64,000 nt of DNA from Arthrobacter pigmenti (lineage in GTDB: Bacteria > Actinomycetota > Actinomycetes > Actinomycetales > Micrococcaceae). Shown piece by piece: positions 57,488-63,959 of this stretch; positions within the stretch are counted from its first letter, which is position 1, and every line of letters begins with the position of its first letter. The stretch covers positions 682,001 to 746,000 of the forward strand of contig NZ_JAATJL010000001.1 of the NCBI RefSeq assembly GCF_011927905.1, given 5' to 3'. A program made the translations under genes and the position numbers. Below the pieces are notes generated by a model. It made no database searches. It was given only the letters and a program-made list of their open reading frames with translations, and was not told where the DNA came from.

Positions 57488-58228
57488 TTACGGCCACAGA
57501 CCGAGCCCTGCGGCTACCGAGTTCCACGCCCACGCGAGGGACCCCGCAATCACGACGGCGAAGAGCACCAGCCAGGCAGCAGCCGGGATACCAGTGGCGC
57601 GGTACAAGAGGTGGGCGTCTGATTGTCCGCGGTCCCGCCGTCGTCGTGCGTGGACTGCGGCGACCTTGCCGAGGTCGCGCACCGAGCCGACCAGCAGCGC
57701 AATCCCAAGGGCCACGACAACGTGGCCGGTGAATTCCGGAGGCACTGCCAGCACGAGGACCGTGGATACCGCCACCGCGCCCAGCAGGATCAGCACTCCG
57801 CCCGCGTTTCGGATGAAGAGCAGCGACACGAGCAGCACGAGCGCTCCCACCGATAACGTGGCCGGCGCCCAGCCCGCAAATCCTGCCCAGATAAGAACGG
57901 CGCCGACGACGGCGGGCGCCGGGTAGCCCCAGAAGCTCGCCCAGGCGGTCCGCCAGCCGGGGCGGCCGAACGACGTCGTGAGCCCGGAGTGGTCGAAGTT
58001 CAGCCGGATTCCTGTCACCCGGCGGCCGGTCATCAGCGCAGCGAAGGCATGGCCAAGTTCGTGCACAACGGTGCTGAAGAGGCCGAAATAGCGCCACGTA
58101 GCCCGCGGAATCGACAGCGCCGCCGCGATGAGCAGGATGATTCCCACCTCGGTCAGGCTCAACTCGGGCGGCTGGCTCCGGGCGAAGCCCGCCAGAATCC
58201 GGTCCCACCACTGCGCTGTCAGTTCCAC
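57488..58228 (-). CDS. M50 family metallopeptidase
   Basis: This is a 246-residue membrane protein with about six segments. VVHELGHAFAALMTGRRVTGI contains HELGH, the zinc motif of site-2-type M50 proteases. The partner aspartate motif is not obvious in the C-terminal half. Members of this group in actinobacteria are of unknown function. GTG 58228 is chosen over the longer frame to 58354, which runs into the repeat element; the ribosome site is weak. It is convergent with the osmoprotectant operon. Confidence 0.78.
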   Translation of the reverse strand: MELTAQWWDRILAGFARSQPPELSLTEVGIILLIAAALSIPRATWRYFGLFSTVVHELGHAFAALMTGRRVTGIRLNFDHSGLTTSFGRPGWRTAWASFWGYPAPAVVGAVLIWAGFAGWAPATLSVGALVLLVSLLFIRNAGGVLILLGAVAVSTVLVLAVPPEFTGHVVVALGIALLVGSVRDLGKVAAVHARRRRDRGQSDAHLLYRATGIPAAAWLVLFAVVIAGSLAWAWNSVAAGLGLWP

Positions 58229-58264: not shown

Positions 58265-58368
58265 GCGATCATTCCGTGCAGGTCTGGCGGACTGCACCGG
58301 CGTGTTGCTCACGACACGCCGCTGTTTGCCGGGTCTTGGGCGGCAGACCTGCACGGAATCGCGCGGGA
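58265..58368. repeat. 104-bp repeat, copy A (with nested inverted repeats)
   Basis: This 104-base element matches 63856-63959 with 7 substitutions and no gaps (93% identity). ATTCCGTGCAGGTCTG near the left end is inverted near the right end (CAGACCTGCACGGAAT), and an inner CGGCGTGT / ACACGCCG pair forms a second hairpin. It carries no credible gene. It lies between the M50 gene and the LacI gene; copy B follows the GH130 gene. It resembles a small non-autonomous mobile or structural repeat. Confidence 0.75.
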
Positions 58369-58399
58369 GGCGTGCGAGATGCCTCTTGACAGCGCGGAA

Positions 58400-58436
58400 C
58401 TGAACCGGTTTAGTAGTATTTGCTGAACCGGTTCAG
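58400..58436. promoter_or_regulatory. Two LacI-type operators at the GH130 operon promoter
   Basis: CTGAACCGGTTTAG (58400-58413) and CTGAACCGGTTCAG (58423-58436, perfect palindrome) are 23 bases apart. A TTGACA (58386-58391) lies just upstream, with weak -10 candidates between and over the operators. The adjacent LacI protein is the likely ligand-responsive repressor. Confidence 0.68.
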
Positions 58437-58462
58437 TGAGCTGTATCACCAGGAGGACACCA

Positions 58463-59479
58463 ATGGCGGTAACCATCAGTGACGTTGCCCGTGCCGCAGG
58501 CGTCAGCAAGGGCGCCGTATCCTACGCCCTCAACGGTCAAGCCGGAGTAAGCGAGGAAACGCGTCGGCGGATCCTTACCGCCGCAAAGGATCTGGGCTGG
58601 AGCCCGAGCCTCCGCGCGAAGTCTCTCTCCTCATCCAAGGCTTACGCGCTTGGACTTGTAGTTGCACGCAATCCGCGCCTGCTCGGTACGGATCCGTTCT
58701 TCCCCTCTTTCATTGCGGGAATCGAGACCACGCTGGCTGACCGCGGCTACTCCCTGGTCCTCACGGTCGCTGCGAAGCAGGGCGCGGAGGAAGCAAGCTA
58801 CCGGCGCCTGGTCCACGAGGGCCGGGTCGACGGCGTGATCCTCAGCGACATGCGGACCGATGATGCCCGCATCGCCCTCCTGCTGGAACTGGGACTACCG
58901 GCCGTGACACTCAACCGGCCCACGCTGGCCTCTCCGTTTCCCGCGGTCTGCATGGACGACACCGAGGGAATCAGCAGCGCCGTGCAGCACCTGGTTGACC
59001 TGGGGCATACCCGGATCGCCCACGTCGGCGGCTCCCAGCACTATATTCACGGCCTGAGCCGTCGGCTTGCCTGGGAAGCGACGCTTGAACGCAATGGACT
59101 GCCGACGGACATGTTCGTTGAAGCGGACTTCGGCGCTCAGCAGGGCACGGCAGCAACCGCCCAGCTTCTGGAGCGGGATCAAAGGCCCACGGCCATCGTC
59201 TACGCCAACGACATCATGGCCACAGCCGGCCAGTCCTACCTCCAGCAGCAGGGTCTCCGCATCCCTACGGACATATCGATCACCGGCTACGACAACACCG
59301 AATTCGCGCAGTACCTCAACCCGGCGCTCACCAGCATCGGTAGCGATCCGCTCCTGTGGGGCAGCACAGCGGCGCAGGTCCTGCTCAACCAGCTGGAGGG
59401 AAAGCACGACGGCGAGGACGTCATCCTTCCGGCACCCCAGCTCATCGTCCGCGGCTCAACAGCTGAGCCTTCCGCATAA
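58463..59479 (+). CDS. LacI family regulator of the GH130 operon
   Basis: This is a 338-residue LacI regulator. The HTH/hinge MAVTISDVARAAGVSKGAVSYALNGQAGVSEETRRRILTAAKDLGWSPSLRAKSL precedes the sensor domain (LGLVVARNPRLLGTDPFFPSFIAGIETTLADRGYSLVLTVA). AGGAGG before ATG 58463 decides the start. Two CTGAACCGGTTCAG-type operators lie at its promoter, so it probably represses itself and the downstream binding-protein, permease and GH130 genes, which follow within about 30 bases. The inducer is likely a mannoside. Confidence 0.9.
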   Translation: MAVTISDVARAAGVSKGAVSYALNGQAGVSEETRRRILTAAKDLGWSPSLRAKSLSSSKAYALGLVVARNPRLLGTDPFFPSFIAGIETTLADRGYSLVLTVAAKQGAEEASYRRLVHEGRVDGVILSDMRTDDARIALLLELGLPAVTLNRPTLASPFPAVCMDDTEGISSAVQHLVDLGHTRIAHVGGSQHYIHGLSRRLAWEATLERNGLPTDMFVEADFGAQQGTAATAQLLERDQRPTAIVYANDIMATAGQSYLQQQGLRIPTDISITGYDNTEFAQYLNPALTSIGSDPLLWGSTAAQVLLNQLEGKHDGEDVILPAPQLIVRGSTAEPSA

Positions 59480-59510
59480 AACACCCGAAGTATCACAAGA
59501 GGAGAACGCA

Positions 59511-60806
59511 ATGAGGCGCATAACCACAAAACGCACCCTGGCTCTCACAGTCACCGCGCTGACGGGGCTTGGCCTGGCAGCCTGCGGAGGGGGAGGCGAC
59601 GCCGGAACCACCGACGCCGGCGAACTCACCAGCGGGCCAATCACCATCTGGTATTCCAACAACCAGCAGGAGGTCGCCTGGGGCGAGGACATGGTCGCAG
59701 CCTGGAATGAAGCCAACCCGGACCAGGAGATCACCGCGCAGGAGATCCCCGCCGGCACCAGTTCCGAGGAGGTGATTGCCGCAGCCATCACCGCCGGCAA
59801 CGCTCCGTGCATCGTGATGAACACAGCGCCGGTCGCCGTACCCCAGTTCCAGCAGATGGGCGGGCTGGTTCCGCTGGATACCTTCGAGGACGGCGTCGAA
59901 TACATCGAATCCCGCAGCGGCGAGGTAGCGGAGCAGTACAAGTCAGCGGACGGCCAGTACTACCAGTTGCCGTGGAAATCCAACCCCGTAGTCCTCTACT
60001 ACAACAAGGACATGTTCACCGAAGCGGGCCTGGATCCGGAGAACCCGCCGCTCGGAACCCAGGATGAGCTGCTGGAAACTTCCCGCACGCTGGTGGAGTC
60101 CGGTGCTGCGGAGTACGCGATGTGGCCCTCGCCTGCCGGTGAGTTCTTCCAGTCCTGGTTCGACTTCTACCCGTTCTATGCAGCAGCTACCGGCGGCACC
60201 CAGCTTGTCGAAGACGGCGAAGCGACGTTCACCTCCGAAGAGGGCCTGGCCGTCGCCGAGATGTGGCGCACCATGTATGAGGAAGGTCTGTCTTCGCAGG
60301 AGGCGTACACGGGGGACTCCTTCGTGGACAAGAAGGCTGCGATCGCCATCTCCGGTCCCTGGGCCATCCCGGTCTACGGCGACCAGGTCAACTGGGGCAC
60401 AGCTCCGGTCCCCGGCCTCGAAGAGGGAGCGGAAACGTCGACCTTCTCGGACGCGAAGAACATGGCCATCTACTCGGCCTGCGACAACAAGCAGACCGCG
60501 TGGGAAGTCATGAAGTTCGCCACCAGCGAGGAGCAGGACCGCGCCCTGCTGGAAGCAACCGGCCAGATGCCCATCAGGCAGGACCTGACCGGAACCTATC
60601 CGGACTACTTCGAGGCCAACCCTGCGTACGTTGAGTTCGCGGACCAGGCAAGCCGCGCCGTCGAGGTACCCAACGTCCCCAACTCGGTTGAGGTCTGGCA
60701 GACCTTCCGCGATGCGTGGGGCTCATCGGTGATCTTCGGCAACGAGTCCATCGAGGACGCCTTCAGCGGCGCAGCCGAAGAGATCAACACCCTGGTCTCC
60801 GAGTAA
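59511..60806 (+). CDS. CUT1 ABC importer, sugar-binding lipoprotein (GH130 operon)
   Basis: This is a 431-residue lipoprotein with lipobox LAACGG (Cys25). The mature domain (ITIWYSNNQQEVAWGEDMVAAWNEANPDQEITAQEIPAG and following PWKSNPVVLYYNKDMFTEAGLDPENPPL) is a family 1 solute-binding protein. AGGAG precedes ATG 59511. It is the first transporter gene after the LacI gene (31-base gap). The ligand is probably an oligosaccharide containing mannose, judged from the GH130 enzyme. Confidence 0.92.
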   Translation: MRRITTKRTLALTVTALTGLGLAACGGGGDAGTTDAGELTSGPITIWYSNNQQEVAWGEDMVAAWNEANPDQEITAQEIPAGTSSEEVIAAAITAGNAPCIVMNTAPVAVPQFQQMGGLVPLDTFEDGVEYIESRSGEVAEQYKSADGQYYQLPWKSNPVVLYYNKDMFTEAGLDPENPPLGTQDELLETSRTLVESGAAEYAMWPSPAGEFFQSWFDFYPFYAAATGGTQLVEDGEATFTSEEGLAVAEMWRTMYEEGLSSQEAYTGDSFVDKKAAIAISGPWAIPVYGDQVNWGTAPVPGLEEGAETSTFSDAKNMAIYSACDNKQTAWEVMKFATSEEQDRALLEATGQMPIRQDLTGTYPDYFEANPAYVEFADQASRAVEVPNVPNSVEVWQTFRDAWGSSVIFGNESIEDAFSGAAEEINTLVSE

Positions 60807-60819
60807 GTAGGTGTAGACG

Positions 60820-61770
60820 GTGACCACCGATTCCGCCGTCGGCAAGCTGCGGGATCCGGGCCCCACCCCGGATCCCGCTCCCCGGCGGCGCAAGAGATTC
60901 CTGGGACGGCAGCCGTTTGGCCTGGCGTTCAGCGCACCGTACGTGATCTTCATCCTCGCGGTGCTCGCGTATCCACTGGGCTACGCCGTCTACATTTCAT
61001 TCCACGATTTCTTCTTCACAGCACCGGGAGTGGCGGTTGAGCGCCCGTTCGTCGGCTTGCAGAACTACATCCAGGTGCTCAGCGATCCCGACGTTGCCCG
61101 GTCCTTCCTCAACATCGGCGTCTTCCTGATCATCAACGTTCCGCTCACCGTGGCGCTGTCCCTGATCCTGGCCAATGCGCTGAACCGGGTGAAACGGCTG
61201 CGGACCTTCTTCCGCGTCAGCTACTACGTGCCGTACGTGACGGCGAGTGTCGCCGTCGTCGGCGTCTGGCTTTTCCTGTTCTCGCAGAACGGGCTGGTCA
61301 ACGCGCTTTTGGGGCCGCTGGCGCCGGATCCATCGTGGCTGGTCAATTCCACGCTCGCCATGCCCACCGTCGCGCTCTATGTGACGTGGAAGCAGTTGGG
61401 ATTCTTCATCCTGCTCTACCTAGCGGCGCTGCAGAACATCCCCGAGGAGCTCTACGAGTCCGCGTCGGTGGACGGCGCAGGAAAAGTGCGCCAGTTCTTC
61501 AGCATCACCGTCCCCGGCGTGCGGTCGGCGAGTGTCCTGGTGACGTTGCTGGCCACTATCACCGGCGCGAATCTGTTCACGGAGCCGTACCTGCTCACCG
61601 GCGGCGGCGGACCGGACGGCGCATCAACCTCGCCCGTTTTCCTCATGTACCAGGAGGGAATCCTGCAGGGGAACCCGGATACGGCGGCCGCTCTCGGGGT
61701 CGTGCTGGTACTTGGTGTGCTTGTCATTGCGCTCATCCAGCGACGCCTCGTCGGCGGGAAGGAAGACTGA
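60820..61770 (+). CDS. CUT1 ABC importer, permease 1 (GH130 operon)
   Basis: This is a 316-residue membrane protein with six segments. EAA loop: YESASVDGAGKVRQFFSITVPGVRSASVLVTL. An N-terminal cytoplasmic tail of about 35 Pro/Arg-rich residues precedes the first segment. The GTG at 60820 follows a weak ribosome site, 13 bases after the binding-protein stop. It is the MalF-like member of the pair. Confidence 0.92.
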   Translation: MTTDSAVGKLRDPGPTPDPAPRRRKRFLGRQPFGLAFSAPYVIFILAVLAYPLGYAVYISFHDFFFTAPGVAVERPFVGLQNYIQVLSDPDVARSFLNIGVFLIINVPLTVALSLILANALNRVKRLRTFFRVSYYVPYVTASVAVVGVWLFLFSQNGLVNALLGPLAPDPSWLVNSTLAMPTVALYVTWKQLGFFILLYLAALQNIPEELYESASVDGAGKVRQFFSITVPGVRSASVLVTLLATITGANLFTEPYLLTGGGGPDGASTSPVFLMYQEGILQGNPDTAAALGVVLVLGVLVIALIQRRLVGGKED

Positions 61771-61771
61771 C

Positions 61772-62701
61772 ATGGCCAAGGATTTCCAGCCAACAATGAC
61801 CAAAACGACGACGACGACGCCACCCGGCTCGCCCGCGCCGCCCCCACGAACCTCGGGGCGGAAGAAGAGCAAGAACGGCCTCAAGCCGCTGAGCTTTCTG
61901 CTCCTGGCACTGGGCGCGTTCGTTTTCCTGTTCCCGTTCTACTACATGCTGATCGGCTCGCTGCAGACAGAGCCGGATACCTCGATTGCCGGAGCCTTCC
62001 CGAACTTCGGCAACATTACCGGGCAGAACTATGTGCTCATCAACGAATCGATCAACCTGTTCCGCGGGCTGATCAATTCGGGGATCTTCACGGGCGGGGT
62101 GATTCTGTGCACGGTGATCTTCGGGATTCCCGTTGGCTACGCGTTGGCGCAGATGCACTTCCGCGGCCGGGGCGTGGTCTTCGCGCTGATGCTCCTGGTC
62201 CAGATGGTGCCGTTCCAGCTGCTGCTCATTCCGCTCTACGTGCTGATCGTGCGGGATTACGGACTGGCCGACACGTACCTCGGCATGATCCTGCCGTTCG
62301 CGATCAACTCCACAGCCGTTTTCGTGTTCCGGCAGTACTTCCTGCAGCTGCCCGCATCCCTGTTCGAGGCAGCACGCATCGACGGGGCCAGCGAGATGCG
62401 GATCCTCACGCGGATCGCCGTCCCGCTGGTGCGGCCCGCGATCGTCACCGCAATCCTGCTGACCTTCATCGGGCCCTGGAACGAATTCCTCTGGCCCTTC
62501 CTCGTCACCAAGGACGCGGCCTACCAGCCGCTCGCGGTGTCGCTGGCCAACTACATTTCCAACGTTGCGGCAACCGCCGCCAACCCGTTCGGGGCAATCC
62601 TTGCCGGTGCCTGCGTACTCGCAGCTCCCGCCGTCGGACTGTTCATAATCTTCCAACGCCAATTCATCTCGACCAATATCGGATCCAGCGCAAAGGGCTA
62701 A
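61772..62701 (+). CDS. CUT1 ABC importer, permease 2 (GH130 operon)
   Basis: This is a 309-residue membrane protein with six segments and EAA loop FEAARIDGASEMRILTRIAVPLVRPAIVTA. A Thr/Pro-rich cytoplasmic start of about 35 residues precedes the first segment. It begins one base after the permease 1 stop; GGAAGG lies before ATG 61772. No ATPase gene follows, so a shared MsiK-type ATPase is expected elsewhere. The GH130 enzyme starts 6 bases after its stop. Confidence 0.92.
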   Translation: MAKDFQPTMTKTTTTTPPGSPAPPPRTSGRKKSKNGLKPLSFLLLALGAFVFLFPFYYMLIGSLQTEPDTSIAGAFPNFGNITGQNYVLINESINLFRGLINSGIFTGGVILCTVIFGIPVGYALAQMHFRGRGVVFALMLLVQMVPFQLLLIPLYVLIVRDYGLADTYLGMILPFAINSTAVFVFRQYFLQLPASLFEAARIDGASEMRILTRIAVPLVRPAIVTAILLTFIGPWNEFLWPFLVTKDAAYQPLAVSLANYISNVAATAANPFGAILAGACVLAAPAVGLFIIFQRQFISTNIGSSAKG

Positions 62702-62707
62702 TCTCCT

Positions 62708-63787
62708 ATGACTTCCCAGAAAACTCTCCTGCCGACCGTGCCGTACACGCTCACCCGGGCCGGCGTAATCATGACACCGGAGGACGGCAATGACTTCGAA
62801 GCCGAAGGCGTGCTCAACCCGGCCAGCGGCCGGGGTCCCGACGGCGAGCTGTACCTACTTCCACGCCTGGTGGCCAAGGGCAACGTATCCCGCGTGGGGC
62901 TCGCGAAGGTGATCATCGAGAACGGGGTGCCCACCGGCGTCGAGCGCCTCGGCGTTGTGCTCGGGCCGGACGAGGGCTGGGAACGAGGCATGAACAACGC
63001 CGGCACCGAGGATCCGCGCACCACGTGGGTGCCCTCGCTCGGCAAGCACCTCATGACCTACGTGGCCTATGGCCCGCTGGGTCCGCGCCTGGCGTTCGCC
63101 CATTCTGCGGACCTGCGGACCTGGGACCGTCTGGGACCCTGCTTCTTCGAGTACGAGCCCTCCCTCTCGATGGACCTCAACCTGTTCCCGAACAAGGACG
63201 CCGTGTTCTTCCCCGAACCGGTGAATGATCCCGACGGCGTCCCCTCCTACGCCATGCTTCACCGCCCCATGTGGGACCTCGGCTGGATCCGTGAGGGTGA
63301 GGGTGAGCACCTGCCGGCCGGCGTCACCGACAACCGCCCGGGTATCTGGATCTCCTACGTCCCGGTCGAGGAAGTTCAGCGGGACCTCCGCAACCTCGTG
63401 CACATGGGCAAGCACCGCCTCGTTGCCTTGAGCGAGTTTGATTTCGAGGAGCTGAAGATCGGCGGCGGCCCTGCACCGATCCGGGTTGACGAGGGATGGC
63501 TGATCATTCATCACGGGGTAGCGGGTGCGCTGGAGAAGTCGGCGTTCGACCACCAACAGAAGGTCCACTACACGGCCGCCGCGATGATCCTCGACGCCGA
63601 TGATCCGTCGAAGGTCATCGCCCGCAGCAGCGAACCGCTCCTGGCACCGGAGACGGACGACGAGAAATCGGGCATCGTGCCCAACGTCGTCTTCCCGACG
63701 GCGATCGAGGAGATCGACGGGCAACTGTTCGTGTTCTACGGGATGGCGGACTCGAAAATCGGTGTCGCACGCCTCGATCGGAGATGA
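62708..63787 (+). CDS. GH130 phosphorylase (mannoside phosphorylase)
   Basis: This is a 359-residue five-bladed propeller enzyme. GTEDPRTTW gives the conserved GH130 Asp102 that acts as catalytic acid; FDHQQKVHYTAAAMILDADDPSKVIARSSEPLLAPE is the family C-terminal signature. There is no signal peptide. GH130 enzymes phosphorolyse beta-mannosides such as mannosyl-glucose, mannobiose or mannosyl-chitobiose, releasing mannose 1-phosphate. It ends the operon and would process the imported oligosaccharide. Its subfamily and exact substrate cannot be assigned from sequence alone. Confidence 0.88.
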   Translation: MTSQKTLLPTVPYTLTRAGVIMTPEDGNDFEAEGVLNPASGRGPDGELYLLPRLVAKGNVSRVGLAKVIIENGVPTGVERLGVVLGPDEGWERGMNNAGTEDPRTTWVPSLGKHLMTYVAYGPLGPRLAFAHSADLRTWDRLGPCFFEYEPSLSMDLNLFPNKDAVFFPEPVNDPDGVPSYAMLHRPMWDLGWIREGEGEHLPAGVTDNRPGIWISYVPVEEVQRDLRNLVHMGKHRLVALSEFDFEELKIGGGPAPIRVDEGWLIIHHGVAGALEKSAFDHQQKVHYTAAAMILDADDPSKVIARSSEPLLAPETDDEKSGIVPNVVFPTAIEEIDGQLFVFYGMADSKIGVARLDRR

Positions 63788-63855
63788 TTCCCGCATCGTC
63801 CTTCCCTCGCCGTTGATGACTCACAAGCAGGACACGCCGTTATTGAATGCTCAGG

Positions 63856-63959
63856 GCGATGATTCCGTGCAGGTATGACGGGCTGAACCGGCGTGTTACT
63901 CACGACACGCCGCTGTTCGCCGGGTCTTGGGCGGCAGACCTGCACGGAATCGCGCGGGA
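63856..63959. repeat. 104-bp repeat, copy B (with nested inverted repeats)
   Basis: This is the second copy of the element at 58265-58368, in the same orientation. It starts 69 bases after the GH130 stop. The outer arms are slightly less perfect than in copy A. The following bases (about 63968-63980) repeat CGGCGTGTT, so the structure may continue past the window edge. It might also act as a terminator of the GH130 operon. Confidence 0.72.

Follow-up and report, generated by a model that had tools for sequence, protein, structure and literature searches.

What do the two repeats around a sugar operon of Arthrobacter pigmenti represent? The stretch of DNA analyzed here, 64,000 nucleotides long and referred to as the window (C1:682001-746000 of a 3.79-Mb genome in one contig), contains two 104-bp copies of a repeat in the same orientation, 93% identical to each other (window positions 58265-58368 and 63856-63959). 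Between them lies an operon for a LacI regulator, an SBP_bac_1 binding protein, two BPD_transp_1 permeases, and a Glyco_hydro_130 enzyme. A first-pass annotation had described this arrangement and offered two explanations, a cassette gained or lost by recombination and copies of a small mobile element. We propose that the repeats are probably two copies of a non-autonomous element similar to REPINs (hairpin-forming doublets of repetitive extragenic palindromic, or REP, sequences), and that the gene of a cognate two-domain nuclease forms its autonomous unit; we name this nested-palindrome element E. Our finding concerns this undescribed, selfish-looking pair of nuclease and repeat, of which we know no earlier account in the open literature, more than the sugar operon.

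A family of nested palindromes

The inverted outer arms (ATTCCGTGCAGGTCTG / CAGACCTGCACGGAAT) and the inner CGGCGTGT hairpin reported by the first-pass annotation are both found; the 5′ arm of the right copy reads ATTCCGTGCAGGTATG. The similarity of the pair continues raggedly beyond 104 bp, to about 112-128 bp, and the repeat folds well beyond chance (DNA z = -6.2, RNA z = -5.3, 0/200 shuffles). The 91-bp core of the left E (58270..58360) is a nested palindrome with its short spacer on the left, in which the outer 5′ arm ATTCCGTGCAGGTCTG (58271..58286) and the outer 3′ arm CAGACCTGCACGGAAT (58344..58359) enclose the inner hairpin CGGCGTGTT-GCTCA-CGACACGCCG (58298..58321), with the core GCGTGTC...GACACGCCG that is conserved genus-wide. 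The right E has its 91-bp core at 63861..63951 and its inner hairpin, CGGCGTGTT-ACTCA-CGACACGCCG, at 63889..63912; all of these features are on the plus strand. In general layout, E consists of an outer arm GATTCCGTGCAGGTYTG, 11 nt, the inner hairpin CGGCGTGTC-N-GACACGCCG, that is, GCGTGTC-N-GACACGC(CG), about 23 nt, and an outer arm CARACCTGCACGGAATC. Nearly all aligned copies have an arm-to-arm spacing of 74 bp (91 bp in total), sizes range from 91 to 105 bp, and the spacer sequences vary. Because the two spacers differ in length (11 and 23 nt), E has an orientation.

A whole-genome search with the window repeat returned about 19 more diverged copies elsewhere in the genome (70-78% identity), and a covariance model, R1, found 19 clear copies of E and 2 of a longer variant in this genome, all 21 of them intergenic. 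Five E-bearing loci gave no match in Rfam at the gathering threshold. Two 109-bp variants (C1:96536-96644 and 115230-115338) have the arms of E without the GTGTC/GACAC hairpin; instead, they have AGGTCTGTG and GGTACAAA..GGGTACAC stretches in common and possibly represent a second subtype. Along the chromosome, E is mostly in plus orientation within 0-0.75 Mb and in minus orientation within 2.6-3.7 Mb (17/21, binomial p ~0.004). No clear copy occurs in the 1.6 Mb of C1:745000-2365000 (p ~3e-4 if copies were uniform), the orientation being mostly uniform on either side. As dnaA was not recognized in the first 4 kb of the chromosome, we leave the orientation skew, considered as a possible replication-strand bias, uninterpreted.

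For covariation we used a MAFFT alignment of 28 diverse E elements, and a second covariance model, R2, was built from 28 diverse elements. Across the genus, the 7-bp inner hairpin hardly changes, but the outer arms vary from clade to clade (for example, GATTCCGTGCAGG and GCGGCTTCGTGCACG). Both sides of the outer stem have changed at 22/22 pairs and complementarity is kept; the covariation score is 0.517 versus 0.06-0.14 for controls with slid partners, and since the arm families number about seven, there are fewer independent covariation events than cells. The alignment clearly points to replacement of the arms with complementarity and geometry retained. A palindrome conserved in this way could equally be a palindromic site for a protein or a hairpin in single-stranded or cruciform form.

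A predicted nuclease gene linked to E

In the window's genome and in two relatives (G034 and G024), pairs of E separated by about 1 kb, and in a third relative (G028) a single copy, bracket or adjoin one gene, whose 274-aa product has AbiEi_4, MTES_1575, and DUF559 domains. In the window's genome this unit, with matching arms, is located outside the window, at 63.3-64.4 kb of the chromosome. A homologue of the gene is present in 34 of the 38 genomes of our genus set, which by named records corresponds to the Arthrobacter agilis / echini / subterraneus group. Palindromes with the same inner hairpin and differing arms were seen on both flanks in an initial scan of 30 DUF559 loci. At the named loci of the agilis group, the inner hairpin stands on both flanks of nearly every DUF559 gene, compared with 2/310 control flanks, and R2 places E on both sides in 27 of the 30 DUF559 loci of the genus. 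Every cis copy is antisense to the gene (59/59); the median gap to the gene is 101 bp on the upstream side and 13.5 bp on the downstream side, and the median unit measures 1139 bp. The order of the putative autonomous unit is E, about 100 bp, the nuclease gene, about 4-15 bp, and E, roughly 1.14 kb in all, with both E copies in the same orientation. The gene also sits at pyrE, glmU, and other sites (gene names from our reading of the translations). Its called neighbors at the 30 loci depend on the site, and no partner gene recurs among them, the AbiEii toxin family model not having been applied; nor does an integrase or transposase gene recur beside E at the loci we read. A second DUF559 gene of the window's genome, 64% identical (C1:31492-32678, locus L094), neighbors a pyrE-like gene; it is followed on its 3′ side by E and preceded by a palindrome that matches weakly.

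Palindromes with other arms surround some diverged DUF559 paralogues. Homologues from further Arthrobacter clades can be flanked by palindromes that have different arms and the CGGCGTGTC motif. Of 149 genomes sampled from the order, 69 encode homologues of the AbiEi/DUF559-MTES_1575 protein, often several each. Flanking direct repeats exceed the 99th percentile of mispaired flanks at 48% of loci in the agilis group and at 22% each of the other Arthrobacter-type loci and of the loci from other genera, and several of those beyond the genus are long palindromes (L248, with 86 bp on both sides, L235, and L245). These repeat-flanked homologues beyond the genus, known from the flanks of sampled loci rather than from a survey, are suggestive. 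Carriage of the gene by plasmids or phages was also considered and rejected: only distant homologues (≤33% identity) were found, on 4 plasmids and 2 phage records.

The AlphaFold model of the 274-aa protein (mean predicted local distance difference test score, 91.4) helps to interpret these domains. Residues 1-170 match an AbiEi antitoxin (6y8q, VIA Z 8.9), and PADLOC also gives AbiEi hits; residues 173-273 match NGO0050 (Z 12.9), the catalytic domain of I-Bth0305I (3r3p, Z 12.2), and Vsr (1cw0, Z 10.1). All 42 diverse homologues compared share the candidate catalytic residues E215, D217, H222, and D231. From this model, the E-linked protein is predicted to be a two-domain nuclease, an AbiEi-type DNA-binding module joined to an EDxHD/Vsr-type endonuclease. 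AbiEi antitoxins bind inverted repeats (PMC7319586), and I-Bth0305I dimerizes on a target nearly 60 bp long (PMC3943268).

The arms of E match the resident gene

R2, which was trained partly on cis elements, though on all arm families at once, finds E in 33/38 genus genomes with 1-19 copies each, and the five genomes without E are all without a close homologue of the DUF559 gene. E is scarce where the gene is missing, being present in 30/30 genomes with a close gene versus 3/8 without (Fisher p ~1e-4); this co-occurrence is partly trivial, because the counts include the gene's own flanking copies, although most genomes have more than two. The arms match in trans as well as in cis: across the 13 genomes with copies read away from the gene, the arms of solo E copies have a mean similarity of 0.80 to the gene-flanking pair of their own genome versus 0.48 to those of others (permutation p ~1e-4), with the caveat that a tandem array in G006 also includes arms of another family. 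Between genomes, arm similarity tracks protein identity (Spearman 0.72).

Could the DUF559 protein instead be a DNA-binding regulator, with E as its operators or terminators? In such a domesticated regulon, the main rival to our proposal, protein and arms would co-evolve like a transcription factor and its sites, the upstream E serving as an autoregulatory operator and the E just past the stop codon as a terminator. AbiEi antitoxins do autoregulate via inverted repeats (PMC7319586), many loci have E about 100 bp before the gene and 4-15 bp behind it, and this scheme would equally predict that arms and protein co-evolve. However, of the 21 E copies in the window's genome, 9 have convergent neighbors and only 3 divergent ones, which is unlike operators, and the aligned E elements have no T-run of the intrinsic-terminator type. 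Invariant candidate nuclease residues also speak against a mere regulator, and tandem arrays, near-identical local pairs, and differing site occupancy, described below, indicate spreading. We regard the regulon as unlikely, if still worth serious attention.

Site occupancy and a possible route of spread

The site between grcC and a HIT-family gene is found in empty, solo, and full states in different species. It has no E and a short spacer of 23-75 bp in G059, G001, G011, G058, G000 (the window's genome), G017, and G025; it carries a solo E in G023, G002, and G028, degenerate in G029 and G021; and it holds an E-gene-E unit in G006, G009, and G012. Near-identical copies of E tend to be neighbors in cis, as in the window pair and the pair around the gene in G024, with similarity extending slightly past the arms. 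E also forms local tandem arrays at L338:477-1071 (G006), L135:2432-2767 (G019), and L343:601-919 (G004), with periods of about 124, 119, and 218 bp, and the first of these mixes two arm families. From the near-identical neighbors and the arrays, local recombination or conversion contributes to the distribution of E.

Alternatively, E might be a miniature inverted-repeat transposable element (MITE) of another, extinct transposon, the DUF559 gene a passenger captured early, and the rest the work of local homologous recombination. That neighboring near-identical copies run past the arms would fit recombination or duplication, and no target-site duplication that would identify an enzyme was recognized. 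Under this view, however, one would not expect the fixed geometry and antisense orientation of the unit in 27 loci at several chromosomal sites, nor direct repeats with different arms beside homologues from further clades of Arthrobacter and further families of the order, nor that arms in trans follow the resident gene. We consider a MITE origin improbable.

If E is instead the partner of its linked nuclease, as we propose, the AbiEi-like module would bind the inverted arms, and the nuclease domain would nick or cut E as a duplex, a cruciform, or a single-stranded hairpin. Repair templated by other copies could then spread E and homogenize the arms within a genome, and may occasionally copy or delete the whole E-gene-E unit.

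Several points weigh against this proposal. The movement of E, and binding and cleavage by the nuclease, are inferred rather than observed. No recognizable target-site duplication was found at the empty and solo junctions, which were compared between diverged species. At 1-19 copies per genome, E is low in number for a REP family. A classical homing endonuclease gene interrupts its recognition site, whereas the E copies beside this gene are uninterrupted. In G027 (which retains a gene fragment), G020, and G005, E occurs although no intact close gene is present. The arm matches are also less independent than they appear: the gene and its flanking E copies are linked, so that agreement in cis follows from inheritance, and close genomes have both arm family and protein in common, so that phylogeny contributes to the match in trans.

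The GH130 operon

Is the operon then moved by its repeats? To the right of an M50B-like peptidase gene (57488..58228, minus strand), which is a conserved flank of this locus in relatives, and of the left E, the operon consists, all on the plus strand, of the genes for a LacI-family regulator (58463..59479), an ATP-binding cassette (ABC) sugar substrate-binding protein (SBP_bac_1; 59511..60806), ABC permeases 1 (60820..61770) and 2 (61772..62701), and a GH130 mannooligosaccharide phosphorylase (Glyco_hydro_130; 62708..63787). It occurs at the same locus in G034, G024, G028, G057, G008, and G010, and there extends into a gene of 614-711 aa. In G018, G002, G022, and G004 it is missing and the flanking genes are directly joined.

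This presence in some and absence in other genus members at one locus is what a cassette delimited by direct repeats would produce, and such a cassette would also fit the site between the genes for a FadR-type regulator and a universal stress protein, where direct E pairs in two genomes enclose different genes: a methyltransferase, a kinase, and a sensor pair in the window's genome (L034:5673-11023) versus a glutaredoxin in G034 (L099:5105-6816). In G034, the second E of this site is followed by an apparent duplicate of the glutaredoxin 3′ end. At the GH130 locus, however, the six relatives keep the operon without the right repeat, that repeat lies at a breakpoint private to the window's genome, and no palindrome was found at the joined flanks of the four operon-less genomes. 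The cassette proposed by the first-pass annotation is thus largely refuted and appears very improbable to us. As six relatives have the operon in this place but no right-hand E, the repeat pair defines no mobile operon; we read the GH130 operon as a bystander. Retention of the operon without the repeats, which that annotation had named as evidence against its idea, largely holds for the pair, but not for the element itself. Its other suggestion, copies of a small mobile element, stands in outline, as a dispersed palindrome family of fixed geometry with a linked nuclease gene, whose movement we infer.

What happened to E at this locus may be reconstructed as follows. At the left position, G034 and G024 have an element with different arms, 55% identical to the left E of the window, and G028 has a palindrome with arms of its own kind. 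Since the left and right E of the window are 93% identical to each other, the left site appears to be an old E site whose sequence was replaced in one lineage: either the left E recently gave rise to the right one, or the right E overwrote the left. Where the relatives have their long gene, the window's genome has instead the right E and genes for an amidohydrolase, a permease, and a TetR-like protein (window 63960 onward; C1:745996-749802). The amidohydrolase has no close match in the 37 other genus genomes, and for this reason the segment looks horizontally gained.

Comparison with known systems

In its workings, the proposed system of E and its gene is like that of REPINs and their REP-associated tyrosine transposases (RAYTs). 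As in REPIN-RAYT systems, dispersed intergenic hairpins have diverse spacers, form tandem arrays, and carry arms specific to the resident enzyme, whose low-copy gene is linked to the palindromes; there are also more elements where the enzyme is present (compare PMC8049555). Unlike them, the enzyme is of the AbiEi-EDxHD/Vsr type instead of a Y1 HUH transposase, and E is a nested palindrome of 91-105 bp with a nearly invariant inner hairpin. Membership in the REPIN-RAYT or IS200 group itself was rejected: the complete window genome has no Y1_Tnp (PF01797) match, with positive search controls, and the linked gene is of the DUF559/MTES_1575 type. With the ends of IS200/IS605 insertion sequences E shares imperfect palindromes in the same orientation at both ends of an enzyme gene; it differs in this lack of Y1_Tnp and in that solo copies keep a full-length, fixed geometry.

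Integron attC arrays and MITE-flanked composite transposons likewise place direct folded sites around unrelated genes. In contrast to both, no integrase or transposase recurs beside E at the loci we read, and the borders of the GH130 cassette are not conserved. By inspection, the GTTRRRY/RYYYAAC core is absent from the conserved positions of the E alignment, IntI not having been searched for.

The protein resembles the type IV toxin-antitoxin system AbiE in the AbiEi fold of its N-terminal part, and differs from it in the added C-terminal nuclease and in having no recurrent partner gene that we could see. With the EDxHD homing endonuclease I-Bth0305I it shares the nuclease fold, a joined helix-turn-helix DNA-binding part, and a long target. 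Unlike homing endonuclease genes, it sits in no intron or intein, and its putative target is dispersed and intact on both sides in 27/30 loci.

No open-access paper that we found links DUF559, MTES_1575, or AbiEi proteins with palindromic repeats; the subscription literature was outside our scope, so novelty is not proven. Going beyond the genus, one could imagine a separate class of mobile palindromes that is widespread in Actinomycetales and whose nested elements are recognized and propagated not by an HUH transposase but by a Vsr/EDxHD-type nuclease carrying an AbiEi module; we see this extension as evenly balanced between right and wrong. If it is true, a large and abundant protein group, now annotated as an AbiEi antitoxin domain or as DUF559 of unknown function, would gain a testable function as REPIN-like enzymes, and its natural series of enzyme-site pairs with switching specificity could serve studies of DNA recognition. 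Palindromic element systems would then have arisen more than once, from unrelated enzymes.

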